From contig JBBDQS010000014.1 of assembly GCA_040905805.1 (NCBI GenBank), positions 1 through 32,667 on the forward strand: a stretch of DNA of 32,667 nt, in the 5' to 3' direction. The translations under genes and the position numbers were made by a program. Of this stretch, positions 76 through 5,966 are shown piece after piece. The first letter of the stretch is position 1. Every line of letters begins with the position of its first letter. This DNA is from Egibacteraceae bacterium. Its GTDB lineage: Bacteria; Actinomycetota; Nitriliruptoria; Euzebyales; Egibacteraceae. The notes below the pieces were generated by a model. It searched no databases. It saw nothing but the letters and a program-made list of their open reading frames with translations, and was not told the DNA's origin.

Positions 76-363
76 TCAGGCACCGACTTCCGAGCGCCCA
101 CGGAACTCGTCGCGGACCTGCTGCAACGAAGTGCCTTGGGCTCCGGCGTCGAGTTCGGCCAGACCCTGGGTGATCGCGGCGACCGACTCCTGGTCGGAGA
201 GGACCTCCAGGGTCAGCTCGAGTCCTTCGAGGTCGTCGATGGACAGCAACACTGCCTCGGCGCGGCCGTTGCGCGTGAGGGTGAACCGCTCATGTTCGGC
301 GTGGGCGAGGCGAGCAAGTTCGTTCAGCTTGGCTTTCGCCTCGCTCACCGGCAGCGTCGTCAT
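76..363 (-). CDS. Phd/YefM-family antitoxin, orphan in this window
   Basis: A 95-residue protein with the N-terminal pattern of Phd/YefM antitoxins: it opens with a short strand and 'VSEAKAKLNELARLAH', followed by 'FTLTRNGRAEAVLLSIDDLEGL'. Family members bind operator DNA through this N-terminal half and neutralise a RelE- or Doc-type toxin with a flexible C-terminus. The C-terminal 40 residues here are acidic and Gln/Ala-rich, which fits. The partner toxin would normally follow directly on the minus strand, but only 75 bases remain before the window edge and no toxin start with a convincing reading frame is visible. The gene is therefore either an orphan or its toxin lies outside the window. 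The ATG at 363 is the only reasonable start. The role is inferred from family resemblance alone. Confidence 0.8.
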   Translation of the reverse strand: MTTLPVSEAKAKLNELARLAHAEHERFTLTRNGRAEAVLLSIDDLEGLELTLEVLSDQESVAAITQGLAELDAGAQGTSLQQVRDEFRGRSEVGA

Positions 364-488: not shown

Positions 489-1411
489 GTGACGGCATGT
501 CCATCGAATGGAGATGCCATGGCCACCACCTCGCTCCGTGTTGATGACGTGCCGCTCCTGCTCGAGTCGTTCCTCACCGGCTACTGGTCCCAGCGCACAC
601 GGGCGAACTACCGGTTCATCCTCGGCGGCTGGTTCACCTGGTGCACCCGCCATGAGCACGACGTGCTTCGTGACACTGACCCACGCGTGGTCGAACGCTG
701 GATCACCGACATGCAGCAGCACCCGTATGCAGCGAACACCATCGCCGCTCGCGTGTCAGCGGTCTCGGCGTTCTACCGCTGGTGCTTGCGCGAACAACTC
801 GTCGACCGCAACCCCGTCGAGGCGATCCGTCGCCCCAGCCGTCCGGGAGAGTCGACCACGTCGAGCCTGACCCGCCACCAGCTCACCGACTGGCTCGCGG
901 CCGCCGAACGCCACGGCGGTGCCTGGTGGGCCGCAGCGATGCTGCTGGGCCTCAACGGCCTGCGCTGCGGCGAGCTCATCGCCTGCGACGTCACCGACGT
1001 CGGCAACCACTCCTGGCACCACACCCTGGCGTTGCGCACCACCAAGGGCGACAAGCCCACCGTGATCGCGCTCGCCCCCCCGACCATGCAAGCGATCGAG
1101 ACCGCTGTCGACGGTCGGTCCGGCGGGCCGCTGCTGCGCAACACCGCCGGCCGGCGAATGACCGTCTACAACGTCCAGTACCTGGTCGCCGCGCTCGCCC
1201 GCGACGCCGGGATCATCAAACACCTGACTCCCCATGGGCTGCGACACAGCGCTATCACCGTTGGCCTGGACGCCGGCGTTTCCTTGCCGACATGCAGGAC
1301 TTCGCCCGCCACGCCGACCCCAAGACCACCCGACGCTACGACCGCTCCCGCCACGCCCTCAACCGCCACGCCACCTACGCCATCGCCCGCTACCTCGCCG
1401 GAGGCATATAG
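489..1411 (+). pseudogene. Tyrosine recombinase / phage-type integrase, frameshifted near the C-terminus
   Basis: Tyrosine recombinase of about 300 residues. The N-terminal SAM-like core-binding domain ('TRANYRFILGGWFTWC', 'FYRWCLREQLVDRNPVEAIR') is followed by the catalytic domain with Arg in 'GLNGLRCGELIA' and the His-x-x-Arg box 'LTPHGLRHSAITVGLDAG'. Just after 'DAGVSL', at about 1281-1287, the reading frame breaks. The expected tail, with 'FARHADPKTTRRYDRSRH' carrying the last His and the nucleophilic Tyr, continues in the +2 frame to a stop at 1411. One missing base in 'tccttgccg' accounts for this. The in-frame read-through product would lack the catalytic Tyr. The start is GTG 489 after GGGAGG, or ATG 519. 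A conserved repeat lies 43 bases past the end. The integrase is either inactive or affected by an assembly error. It is the natural candidate for mobilising the neighbouring genes. Confidence 0.87.
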
Positions 1412-1453: not shown

Positions 1454-1466
1454 GCGGATTCAACGG
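1454..1466 (+). repeat. Dispersed repeat, copy 1 (partial; left arm only)
   Basis: The 13 bases GCGGATTCAACGG are identical to 2931-2943 and to the matching part of the copy near 4100. Only the left arm is present here: no TGAATCCGCC right arm follows. It sits immediately downstream of the integrase and upstream of the first hydrolase gene. Confidence 0.6.
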
Positions 1467-1491
1467 ATAACCGAACCCTCGGCACTCAGGA

Positions 1492-1514
1492 GCCTGTCGC
1501 AGGAACCGACAGGC
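1492..1514. other. Perfect 8-bp stem-loop after repeat copy 1
   Basis: GCCTGTCG at 1492-1499 pairs perfectly with CGACAGGC at 1507-1514 across a 7-base loop. It lies 26 bases after repeat copy 1 and 25 bases before the first hydrolase. It could be a terminator for the integrase (no T-run follows), an operator, or part of a recombination site. The sequence does not decide between these. Confidence 0.4.
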
Positions 1515-1527
1515 CGAACCGCCGGCG

Positions 1528-1533
1528 TAGCCT
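1528..1533 (+). promoter_or_regulatory. Possible -10 element for a leaderless hydrolase transcript
   Basis: TAGCCT ends 5 bases before the ATG at 1539 and there is no convincing ribosome-binding site. This is the arrangement seen for leaderless transcripts in Actinobacteria. No good -35 box is visible, so support is weak. Confidence 0.3.
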
Positions 1534-1538
1534 GGGGT

Positions 1539-2520
1539 ATGCAGTACACCGACTGGGGTGAGCGCGCCGCTTGCTGGTCCGGGATCCGCCGCGAGACGGT
1601 CGATGTGCACGGCACGAAGGTGCACTACCTGGTAACGGATCACACCCGGACGTCGGATCAGCCGGTTCACCTGCTCGTTCCCAACCCTGCCAACGGCGCC
1701 TCGAACTGGCTCGACGTACTCGCGGGGCTGCGGGCACACGCGCATGCGATCGCGGTAGACCTGCCCGGCACGATCGCCGGCCACACCGCGCTGCCGAACC
1801 GGCGCGCGGCGAGCATCGAAGCCAACGCGCTGTTCCTGCGTGATTTCAGCGACGCACTCGAACTCGATCTGGTCGTGGTTCACGGCTGGTCGGCGGGCGG
1901 GATGATTGCGCTGCTGTTCGCCGACCAGGCACCCGAACGGGTCGCCGGACTCGTGTTGGTTGTTCCGGCACTTCCCTCCCCCGCTGAGCGCGGGCGAGGC
2001 GCGCATGTGGCGGACCCTCGGCAGCGCTGGGTTGGCGGTCGTCGCGCCGGTCGCCCGTGCGCTGCTCCGCGTTTCGGAGAGACGGATCCTCGCGTGGAAC
2101 CTGCAGCAACTGAACGATCCCGCGTCGATTTCGGGTAGCAGATGGAATACGGGCGGTGACCTGACGAAGATGTCGGCGGAAATCGCCGGTCTCATGCGAG
2201 ATGAGATGTCGGCGGTCTAGTCGACACGCCTGGGAAGCGCGGTCACGGTGTATGCCTCAGTCATGTCGCTGATGTTCGTCTGGCGGCGATCCGTGCTCGA
2301 CGCGATGCGCCGGGTCGCGGCGCGGACTCTTCTTGTTTGGGGCGATGAGGATCGCCTCACTCCCCGCGCGTCGATCGATGACTGGACTGCGCACCGGCCC
2401 GACTGGAACTTGGTGGTCTTGCACGGTGTGGGTCACGCGCCGCCGTTGGAGGTCGCCGCCGATTACGCGCGCACGGTCATCGACTGGGTGGGGCTCACGG
2501 GTTCAGGACACGACCAATAG
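1539..2520 (+). pseudogene. Alpha/beta-hydrolase fold protein, broken by a frameshift and a stop
   Basis: An alpha/beta hydrolase of about 320 residues can be reassembled from two frames. The first frame gives the N-terminus and nucleophile elbow 'VVHGWSAGGMIALLFADQ' (Ser in G-x-S-x-G). At about 1975-1990, in a C-rich run ('cttccctcccccgctg'), the coding continuity moves by one base into the next frame ('PPLSAGEARMWRTLG'). That frame is then cut by a TAG at 2218-2220. It resumes without a further shift to give the acid loop 'LLVWGDEDRLTP' and the catalytic His in 'VVLHGVGHAPPLE'. All three catalytic positions are still readable, so decay seems recent. Two independent lesions, one a nonsense codon, make a sequencing slip an unlikely full explanation. 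The gene lies between repeat copies 1 and 2. Confidence 0.82.
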
Positions 2521-2875
2521 GGATACGTCGGGTAGCTGCTGGGAGCGGCTGTGAACAACCTCCGGTAGCAGGCTGGACCAGGCAGGAGCGACTACAGCCG
2601 CCAGGGTTCGGGAAACTTGGCACTCAAGGATGTAGAAGCCGCTGAGCTCGAGGCCAGCAGGGAGTGCCGGGCCGGCTGCCATGGAGCCGTTTGCGACGCT
2701 GACGACCCGTGCGGTCTCCCTGGGCATGAAGGCTTCCCCTCCGCGAGCGAAGGACGCCGGCCTTTGCGAGGTCATGAGTGATCTCGGTGTAGGCCGAGAG
2801 CTCGGCTGCTGCCTCAGCAGCTGTGGTCATCGCTGCGCGTGCCGGGTCCAGGTACAGAAGCAGTGCATACCGCAT
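2503..2875 (-). pseudogene. YCII/DGPF-domain protein, frameshifted and degenerate
   Basis: Starting at the ATG at 2875, the minus strand encodes the typical YCII-family opening 'MRYALLLYLDPARAAM' and 'AELSAYTEITHDLAKAGVL'. Near 2750 the frame changes by one base and continues as 'ARGGEAFMPRETARVVSV', then 'LSGFYILECQ'. The signature normally reading DGPF-E-KE-LGGF is degraded. YCII proteins of this type are usually partners of ECF sigma factors. Here the gene overlaps the end of the broken hydrolase by 18 bases on the opposite strand and has no sigma factor of its own nearby. It is a decayed paralogue of the YCII remnant at 4525. Confidence 0.65.
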
Positions 2876-2925
2876 GTCGCCTCCCGTCGGACCGTGCCAG
2901 GCGATACCCACGGCCTTAGGGTTAT

Positions 2926-2974
2926 CGGCGGCGGATTCAACGGGTCGCTGCAACGGCCTCGGTGAATCCGCCGC
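2926..2974. repeat. Dispersed palindromic repeat, copy 2 (full length)
   Basis: Arms GCGGCGGATTCA (2928-2939) and TGAATCCGCCGC (2963-2974) are perfectly complementary, separated by 23 bases. The first 25 bases (2926-2950) are identical to 4099-4123. Compared with copy 3 this copy has 14 extra bases (2951-2964) between the shared left part and the right arm. It lies between the start of the minus-strand YCII gene and the promoter of the second hydrolase. That is a divergent intergenic region, so it is badly placed to be a simple terminator. Confidence 0.8.
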
Positions 2975-3028
2975 GGCACACCGATGGCGGTCCTCCGCCG
3001 CGAGATGCGTGTTTGCCCGGAGGTTTCG

Positions 3029-3058
3029 TTGACGGCCTGAGCTGCGTTTGCCCATACT
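3029..3058 (+). promoter_or_regulatory. Sigma-70-type promoter for the second hydrolase
   Basis: TTGACG at 3029-3034 and CATACT at 3053-3058 are separated by 18 bases. This resembles a housekeeping promoter and would start transcription near 3065. It places the Shine-Dalgarno GGGGAGG (3071-3077) and the ATG at 3087 on the transcript, and argues against an upstream start at 3048. Confidence 0.55.
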
Positions 3059-3086
3059 TGTCCCACGGGCGGGGAGGGCCGGCGAC

Positions 3087-4040
3087 ATGGTGGATCGCAT
3101 CGAGCGGGAGCGGGCGCGTCTGGGCGCCGCCGAAGCTGCGGTGTTCGCCCACTACGGCGTGGACGCCTCATCCGAATCGCTCAGCGTTGACGATCCACCG
3201 CTGGTCACGCGCGTGGTGCGCTGCGGGCGGGGAGCTCCCACCGTGCTGTTCCACGGTGGAGGCATGACGGCGACGGTATGGACCCCATTGCTGCCCCACC
3301 TACCGGCCCGGTCCCTGAACCTGATCGATCTCCCTGGCTGCGGCCTGGCCGATGCCTTCGACTACACCTGCGTGGACCTCGCCGAGCACCAGGCCGCGTT
3401 CGTCGGCTCGGTGCTGGACGCGCTCGGACTCCAGCGTGCCGCACTGGTTGGCAGCTCACTTGGTGGCATGTACGCGTTGCGGTTCACGCTGCAGCAGCCG
3501 GAGCGAGTCACCGCGCTCTCGCTCATCAGCGCCCCCGCCTTCGCGTTGCCGGGCGCACGGATCCCGTTTCCGATGTCGCTGAGCAGCAACCGCCTGCTGG
3601 GTCGGCTCATGACCGCGCTGGCACCCTCTCCGACGCCACGCATGATGCGGCGGGTGCTCGCCATGATCGGCGGCAAGCAGGGGTTGGAGGGCGTGCCGGA
3701 AGCGCTGTTCGATGCATTGGGGGCGGCGATGGCGCTGGCAGGACCGACGACCGCTTCCCTCGGACCAGAGTCTTTCCGCTGGAGCCGGCCCCACCCACAC
3801 CTCGTCGTCACGGACCAGGAGCTCACGAACTGCCATGTGCCGGTGCAGCTCATCTGGGGGGACACCGACAAGGTGCAGTCGCCCGATGCCGGGATCCGGG
3901 CTGTCGAGTTGCTCCCCGACGGAAGGATCGAGATCCTCCCCGGTGGGCACGGGATCTGGTTCGACGCGCCCGCCCGGTGTGGAGAGCTTCTGACCGACTT
4001 CCTCCGCAGCGTCGAGGAAGAGGGTGCGTCGCCGAAGTAG
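3087..4040 (+). CDS. Alpha/beta-hydrolase fold protein
   Basis: Intact 317-residue alpha/beta hydrolase. Visible elements are the oxyanion-hole segment 'TVLFHGGGMTATVW' (HGGG 56-59), the nucleophile elbow 'LVGSSLGGMYALRF' (Ser124), the acid loop 'LIWGDTDKVQSP' (Asp259/Asp261) and the catalytic His288 in 'LPGGHGIWFDAP'. A lid of about 80 residues separates strand 6 from strand 7. The substrate cannot be read from the sequence; esterase, lactonase or C-C hydrolase activity are all possible. There is no signal peptide, so it should be cytosolic. The start at 3087 is chosen because GGGGAGG lies 9 bases upstream and a promoter ends at 3058. The gene has its own promoter and is bracketed by repeat copies 2 and 3, like a cassette. 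It is the intact counterpart of the broken hydrolase at 1539, though the two are only distantly similar. Confidence 0.87.
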   Translation: MVDRIERERARLGAAEAAVFAHYGVDASSESLSVDDPPLVTRVVRCGRGAPTVLFHGGGMTATVWTPLLPHLPARSLNLIDLPGCGLADAFDYTCVDLAEHQAAFVGSVLDALGLQRAALVGSSLGGMYALRFTLQQPERVTALSLISAPAFALPGARIPFPMSLSSNRLLGRLMTALAPSPTPRMMRRVLAMIGGKQGLEGVPEALFDALGAAMALAGPTTASLGPESFRWSRPHPHLVVTDQELTNCHVPVQLIWGDTDKVQSPDAGIRAVELLPDGRIEILPGGHGIWFDAPARCGELLTDFLRSVEEEGASPK

Positions 4041-4095
4041 AGGGATGGATCCGTTGGCCCACGACCGAGGTGCGGGACGCCAGCGAACCTACTGG

Positions 4096-4138
4096 TAGCG
4101 GCGGCGGATTCAACGGGTCGCTGAATCCGCCGCTGCTA
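4096..4138. repeat. Dispersed palindromic repeat, copy 3, with 5-bp direct flanks
   Basis: A 17-bp stem (4096-4112 with 4122-4138, one G-T wobble, ends TAGC...GCTA) closes on a 9-base loop. It shares 25 identical bases with copy 2 and lacks 14 bases of its centre. The pentamer ACTGG occurs directly before (4091-4095) and directly after (4139-4143), like a target-site duplication. The stop codon of the convergent minus-strand gene lies inside the right end, so the hairpin may also act as a bidirectional terminator between 4040 and 4136. Confidence 0.8.
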
Positions 4139-4453
4139 ACTGGGGGGAGGCCGAAGGCCCTTCCCGCCAAGGGGCTGCAACTCGAAGCGGTCGCCCATCT
4201 CTGCGATCACGGGACGAGCACGCGCGATCAACTGCTGGATCGCTTCCAGGTCCAGCGACGCCTGATGCGCCTCAGCGTCATCCCAGACTTCGACGACCCA
4301 GATGGAGTCGGCGTTGTGGGCGTCTCGGCTGACCACGTACAGGTGGCAACCCGCGACGTCCTCGAGTGCTCCCGCGGCCTCCAGCAGATGGTCCACCAAA
4401 ACGTCACCCTTGCCGGGCTTCGCGACGATCTTCCCACACAGCCCGTAGTTCAC
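4136..4453 (-). CDS. Antibiotic biosynthesis monooxygenase (ABM) domain protein
   Basis: A 105-residue single-domain protein of the dimeric alpha+beta barrel ABM/YgiN type: 'YGLCGKIVAKPGKGDVLVDH' leads into the first helix, then 'LYVVSRDAHNADSIWVVEVW' and 'DDAEAHQASLDLEAIQQLIA'. Family members are small cytosolic quinol or polyketide monooxygenases, or heme- and stress-related proteins. The sequence does not pick between these. It starts with GTG 4453 behind a strong AGGAGG five bases upstream. Its last codons and TAG stop run into the end of palindromic repeat copy 3, so the extreme C-terminus ('GLRPPPS') may have been altered when that element arrived. The gene is complete and, with the second hydrolase, one of the few intact genes in the island. 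Confidence 0.85.
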   Translation of the reverse strand: MNYGLCGKIVAKPGKGDVLVDHLLEAAGALEDVAGCHLYVVSRDAHNADSIWVVEVWDDAEAHQASLDLEAIQQLIARARPVIAEMGDRFELQPLGGKGLRPPPS

Positions 4454-4772: not shown

Positions 4773-5966
4773 ATGACGGGCCACGTCGACGCCGCCGCGA
4801 TCGGCCGGATCGTCCGTGAGGATTCCGGCCGATCCGTGGCCACGCTCGTGCGCATCTTCGGTTCGATCGACCTGGCCGAGGACGCGGTGCAGGACGCGTT
4901 CGTCGTGGAGCAACCCGGGCACGACGAACCGCGGCAGGTGGGCGCCGTGAAGGACGACCAGCTCCGCCTCGTCTTCACCTGCTGCCACCCCGCACTGTCA
5001 ACAGAGGCCCGTGTCGCGCTGACCCTGCGGCTGCTCGGGGGGCTCACCACCCTGGAGGTCGCGTCTGCCTTCCTGGTCTCGCAGCCGACGATGGCGCAGC
5101 GCCTGGTGCGGGCCAAGCGTAAGATCCGGGAGGCGCGGATTCCGTTTCGGGTGCCCGACGAGGACGACCTGCCCGTACGGCTCGCAGCTGTCCTCACCGT
5201 GGTCTACCTCGTCTACAACGCGGGGGCGGACCGCGACGGCCACCCCTGCGCGGACGCGGTCAGACTCGCACGGGTGCTGCGGGACCTGCTGCCGGACGAG
5301 CCGGAAGTAGCCGGGCTGCTCGCGCTGCTGCTGCTCGCCGAGGCGCGCCGACCCGCACGACACGACGCTGACGGCCGGCTGGTCGTGCTCCGCGACCAGG
5401 ACCGGTCGTGCTGGGACCGGTCGCTCATCGACGAGGGCCTTGCGATCGTCCGCCGGCTCCTCAACCGGAACGAGCCCGGCCCCTTCCAGCTTCAGGCAGC
5501 GATCGCCGCGGTGCACACCGACGCGGCCACGTTCGAGCAGACTGACTGGCCGCAGGTGCTGGCGCTCTACGACCATCTCTACGCCGTGCAGCCCACCCCG
5601 GTGGTCGCACTGAACCGCGCCATCGCCCTGGGCGAGACCGAGGGGCCCGCCGCCGCGCTCGCGGTCGTCGACCGCTTGGCTCTAGACGACTACCAGCCGT
5701 TCCATGCCACCTGCGCCCACCTGCTACGCGAGGTCGGCCGCCACCGAGAGGCCGACGACGAGTACCGCCGGGCCGTCGACCTTGCCGTGGAGCCCGCTCA
5801 ACGCGCATGGCTTGAGCAACAGCGGACCTCAAATTTGGTCACGGACGGCACGTTCCGAGGGCGCCCGCCGAACGTGATCCCGCGCAAGGTGTACGAGGAG
5901 CTGCGCTGCCCGCACGATGGACGAGGTCGACGAGCTGGTGCGCCAGGGGCAGGCGCTCACGGGTAG
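4773..5966 (+). CDS. ECF42-like RNA polymerase sigma factor with a deletion in region 2
   Basis: Sigma-70 family ECF factor with a long C-terminal extension, as in group ECF42. Region 2 begins normally ('[20 protein letters not shown]', '[10 protein letters not shown]'). Directly after residue 43 it jumps to '[20 protein letters not shown]'. The usual 45-60 residues between these points, including the -10-recognising helix and the 'AIDRLRRE' block, are missing while the frame is kept. Region 4 ('[20 protein letters not shown]', '[10 protein letters not shown]') and the TPR-like C-terminal domain ('[16 protein letters not shown]', '[18 protein letters not shown]') are well preserved up to about residue 355. 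The final 40 residues do not belong to the family: the frame runs into foreign sequence. Without the -10-binding part it probably cannot start transcription. Its YCII partner just upstream is also broken. Confidence 0.78.

Follow-up and report, generated by a model that had tools for sequence, protein, structure and literature searches.

What is a palindromic repeat doing behind each of two hydrolase genes downstream of a tyrosine recombinase? The question is raised by a 32,667-nt stretch of an Egibacteraceae genome (hereafter the window), where a first-pass annotation had proposed that the palindromes punctuate gene cassettes, as either a different type of cassette boundary or a small mobile palindrome. 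The layout, with an unpaired site beside the integrase and hairpins after the genes, gives a first impression of an integron-like system, which was overturned by evidence that the repeats are ends of IS30-family insertion sequences.

Three repeat copies at one locus

The whole genome (3.6 Mb, 166 contigs) contains the sequence GGCGGATTCAACGG three times, at positions 1453, 2930 and 4103 of the window and always on the plus strand. Copies 2 and 3 have 25 identical bases in common (2926–2950 and 4099–4123) together with a 12-base inverted right arm, both as first annotated, while the match reported for copy 1 also held but spans 14 bases (1453–1466) rather than 13. When hairpin folding was compared with that of shuffled sequences, copies 2 and 3 gave z-scores of −4.9 and −8.9, respectively, with none of 200 shuffles folding as well. 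Copy 1 has no inverted arm and is not palindromic (folding z = −1.8). Since all three occurrences in the genome fall at one locus and on one strand, copies 2 and 3 go far beyond what chance would produce, and they do not qualify as REP-like. The genome-wide scatter that the annotation had named as the mark of ordinary repeats was therefore not seen, though the confinement has a different reason than linkage to cassettes.

A search of Rfam gave no match, and the 18-mer was not found in viral contigs. A degenerate IS30-type pattern was present in 14 viral contigs, one of which carries an inverted pair 1.4 kb apart. An exact 20-mer search across 85k species returned one match, inside a threonylcarbamoyl-AMP synthase-like (Sua5) gene, which was attributed to chance.

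IS30-family ends and transposase codons

The first hint of origin came from a BLAST comparison of copy 2 with plasmids, in which the matches were weak and several lay at the ends of IS30-family elements. A pattern drawn from these plasmid IS30 ends, GATTCAAYNGGTCNNYGCAAC, fits copy 2 without mismatch. Because this pattern had been picked post hoc, a separate test was built without using the window sequence. IS30 transposases were gathered from 296 genomes of the phylum with the profile NF033563, their terminal inverted repeats were located by self-comparison and aligned in register on the common TTCAA motif, and a 32-nt end profile was made from seven Actinomycetota IS30 elements (14 ends in all) selected by transposase alone. 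The top three matches of this profile in the window, at 2929, 4102 and 1452, are exactly the three copies. With nhmmer, copies 2, 3 and 1 reached E-values of 1.7e-6, 0.003 and 0.24, and with a weight matrix (PWM) they scored 34.1, 20.8 and 8.9 bits, against a maximum of 20.3 bits in a random 3.6-Mb sequence with the dinucleotides of the window. Copies 2 and 3 exceed this maximum and are therefore IS30 ends, while the score of copy 1, which 80 random windows also reached, is only suggestive. A further weak match outside the window, at about base 33562 of the contig, scored 11.4 bits, has no palindrome and is within the reach of chance.

The most extensive copy also retains coding sequence. Copy 2 (43 bp, 2930–2972, minus strand) is identical at 34 of 36 bases to the right end of an IS30 element in a genome of the same class (L138, genome G035; E = 3e-8), where this end reads TGCGCATTCAACGGGTCGCTGCAACAGCCTCGGTGAAC and adjoins transposase sequence. 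The minus strand of 2937–2966 translates to FTEAVAATR*, the final residues of an intact transposase ORF of the IS30 type in L140 are ...KFAEAVAATR, and matching C-terminal codons are present at the IS30 end of L130/L138. The peptide is thus the C-terminus of such transposases, and copy 2 therefore retains the last nine codons and the stop of a transposase gene. No IS30 transposase was detected in the genome with NF033563; as those nine codons are all that remains, the copy is a relic and not a functional member of the family. An intact IS30 with exactly these ends was not found in this genome or in one relative of the same genus, and the ends of the intact parent would be expected to read GGCGGATTCAACGGGTCGCTGCAACGGCCTCGGTGAA.

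Copy 2 and copy 3 (29 bp, 4103–4131, minus strand) are thus very probably the relics of two minus-strand IS30-family insertion sequences, which is the best explanation overall. Copy 1 (1453–1466) is probably the truncated tip of a third, tentatively placed on the minus strand with GGCGGATTCAACGG on the plus strand, and it has no inverted partner. It is unusual, and counts against this reading, that three relics should lie within 2.7 kb while the rest of the genome yielded none.

Probable loss of the element interior

The joints within copies 2 and 3 point to how the hairpins may have formed. In the orientation of IS30, copy 2 consists of the left tip GGCGGATTCA joined to TTCACCGAGGCC...GTTGAATCCGCC, with TTCA at the joint and on both sides. 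In window coordinates, the right inverted repeat and the 3′ end of the transposase gene occupy 2930–2966 and the left tip occupies 2963–2972 (both on the minus strand), meeting in the microhomology TTCA at 2963–2966. Copy 3 has the same 10-nt left tip joined to GCGACCCGTTGAATCCGCC, with 19–21 nt of the right end retained, and can equivalently be derived from copy 2 by removing 14 nt between TG repeats. Microhomology at the deletion joint thus amounts to four bases in copy 2 and two in copy 3, where it is seen as a 2-nt overlap.

We propose that an IS30 relative inserted, probably with a 2-bp (GC) duplication, and that a deletion between very short direct repeats (TTCA for copy 2, TG or CA for copy 3) later removed nearly the whole element, bringing right end and left tip together. 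With the interior gone, the inverted repeats at the two ends of an insertion sequence automatically form a near-perfect hairpin. The loss most likely took place in situ, through replication slippage or microhomology deletion, comparable to the nearly precise excision of transposons mentioned for Tn10 (PMC5991714). We infer this order of events, and deletion in place rather than a transposing mini-element, from the end products. The dinucleotide GC flanks copy 2 (2928–2929 and 2973–2974) and copy 3 (4101–4102 and 4132–4133), and these flanks may be target duplications, which would fit the 2-bp duplications made by IS30 (PMC9333248), but GC is self-complementary and could instead belong to the stem. 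The flanks of copy 3 also form a near-palindrome, TAGCGGC/TGCTA, in keeping with the targeting of IS30, which favours nearly palindromic hot spots or its own ends (PMC9333248).

A MITE-like, non-autonomous IS30 derivative could alternatively have moved as a 43-bp unit with transposase supplied in trans, copy 3 later losing 14 bp. The outer ends and GC flanks common to the two copies, and the exact correspondence of copy 3 to copy 2 without those bases, would follow from such a history. However, the left arm is a 10-nt tip only and lacks the inner segment GGTCNNYGCAAC that IS30 ends have in common, there is no transposase in the genome, and only two copies were found, in a single genome. The first 21 nt were absent from 65 other genomes of the same class with three mismatches allowed, and a hairpin pattern searched against 395 genomes of the phylum had one other match, L161, which is without the GCAAC part of the IS30 end. 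As one arm is 10 nt long and no further copies were found, we consider the mobile unit rather unlikely and favour in-place deletion as the simplest account. The small mobile palindrome suggested by the annotation was correct in so far as the palindromes originate from mobile-element DNA, but they are deletion relics that show no sign of mobility, being limited to two palindromic copies in a single genome, with no copy in the other genomes searched.

The strong GC-rich stems are also what ordinary hairpin terminators or REP-like genome repeats would display, and copy 3 does lie between convergent genes, hydrolase 2 and an ABM gene (4136–4453). We nevertheless judge this very unlikely as an explanation, given that the copies are absent from the list produced by a terminator scan, are limited to three at one locus instead of being genome-wide, and have in common a sequence that covers the loop and the transposase codons. 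It is also unlikely, though conceivable, that hairpins formed by IS30 deletion have since been co-opted: the one separating hydrolase 2 from the gene that converges on it could, for example, terminate transcription in both directions, or an intact recombinase of related type, present elsewhere in the cell, could use the hairpins as single-strand targets. A present function of the palindromes is not needed to explain them by IS30 deletion.

The integrase, its neighbours and known systems

The recombinase (489–1411, plus strand) is recognised by Pfam as a tyrosine recombinase, as annotated, but is frameshifted near 1283: its frames run from 519 to 1286 (frame 3) and from 1283 to 1408 (frame 2), and the end with the catalytic Tyr (1283–1411) lies in the second of these. 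Several related integrases align across this point in one frame. The enzyme is generic XerC/D-like and not IntI, with scores of 39.7 bits against integrase_gron TIGR02249 (cut-off 265) and 15.7 against PRK15417 (cut-off 435), and it is a neighbour of the relics, not part of them. Its closest relative (L028, G037:C262, 977–1720) is also broken, by an internal deletion of the stretch matching window positions 1118–1314. The genome contains a second member of this integrase family (L038, G000:C44, 6633–7355), which carries two in-frame TGA codons; in its surroundings, at 1–3.4 kb of that locus, lie diverged repeats of 65 nt, commonly at a spacing of 108 or 204 bases.

Were the palindromes attC-like sites of an integron-like system using this recombinase, copy 1 would be the attI-like site. 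The order of integrase, unpaired site, gene, hairpin, gene and hairpin agrees with such a system, as do the same orientation of all three sites, their uniqueness to the locus and the fit of ATTCAAC to the RYYYAAC core. However, attC sites have RYYYAAC and inverse GTTRRRY cores and are 57–141 bp long (PMC3053210), whereas the 3′ arms here (GGTGAAT and GCTGAAT) are without a GTTRRRY core and the palindromes measure 43 and 29 bp. The proposed enrichment beside this integrase family was not borne out: the 15 related integrase loci (from 296 genomes of the phylum, read in sequence and including the second copy in the same genome) had neither repeated hairpins nor an IS30-end site above the random maximum, and the repeats have no link to the integrase family. 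Similarly, none of the closest hydrolase 2 relatives from other genomes had the element at its borders where flanks were read. Together with the broken, non-IntI recombinase, and with a sequence accounted for base by base as IS30 end, these results lend no support to a different type of cassette boundary, and we give an integron-like system almost no credence. The match to IS30 and the presence of transposase codons rule out attC or an integron as the origin of the sequence.

The neighbourhood is a decaying chromosomal patch with several broken genes. Both presumed hydrolases were confirmed by Pfam as alpha/beta hydrolases, but hydrolase 1 (1539–2520, plus strand) is broken by a frameshift and an in-frame TAG (2218–2220); hydrolase 2 (3087–4040, plus strand) is intact. 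A further gene in the first interval, on the minus strand, is frameshifted as well. The annotation had given each interval its own promoter, yet interval 1 had no sigma-70-like match and interval 2 a single one, at 3029–3058. Further downstream, an ECF sigma factor of the DUF6596 type (4773–5966, plus strand), in which Pfam finds only region 4 and DUF6596, apparently lacks about 46 codons between 4904 and 4908 relative to L142 and L143 and may also be a pseudogene. The closest relatives of hydrolase 2 (58–64%) all belong to another family of the class (f4) and not to the genome's own, as do those of the sigma factor (4773–5822) and the closest relative of the integrase, a placement that suggests lateral gain of the segment. 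Near the contig end, Pfam identifies a Phd/YefM-type antitoxin gene (76–363, minus strand), for which a toxin partner could lie beyond the contig start.

The palindromes are an ordinary feature, the scars of IS30 deletion. With their identification, an apparent lead to a new cassette system proves false. The case also illustrates clearly how an insertion sequence that is almost completely lost leaves behind perfect intergenic hairpins, which can pass for attC-like or REP-like elements. Screens for novel palindromic boundaries should be filtered against the terminal repeats of insertion sequences.

Among known systems, integron attC sites resemble the relics in being palindromes that follow a gene, with a tyrosine recombinase upstream, and the RYYYAAC-like core is a coincidence of the IS30 end; the relics differ in having no GTTRRRY core, in being too short and in their frameshifted, non-IntI integrase. 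MITEs and TIMEs are likewise short, palindromic, non-autonomous elements with transposon ends. However, a MITE would be expected to occur as a set of nearly identical copies in which a transposase could recognise each end, whereas here there are two copies, in which one end is a 10-nt arm without the inner part. In the nearly precise excision of Tn10, an internal part is lost between short direct repeats and the inverted ends are left joined, as proposed here, although the present case is reconstructed from end products only and its repeats are just 2–4 nt. The closest likeness is to the IS30 family itself: the relics have lost nearly all of the element, transposase included, but they keep the 32-nt end profile, with its TTCAA..GGT...GCAAC motif 6–7 nt from the tip, the transposase C-terminus overlapping the inverted repeat, and GC flanks (2 bp, ambiguous through self-complementarity) in palindromic surroundings.
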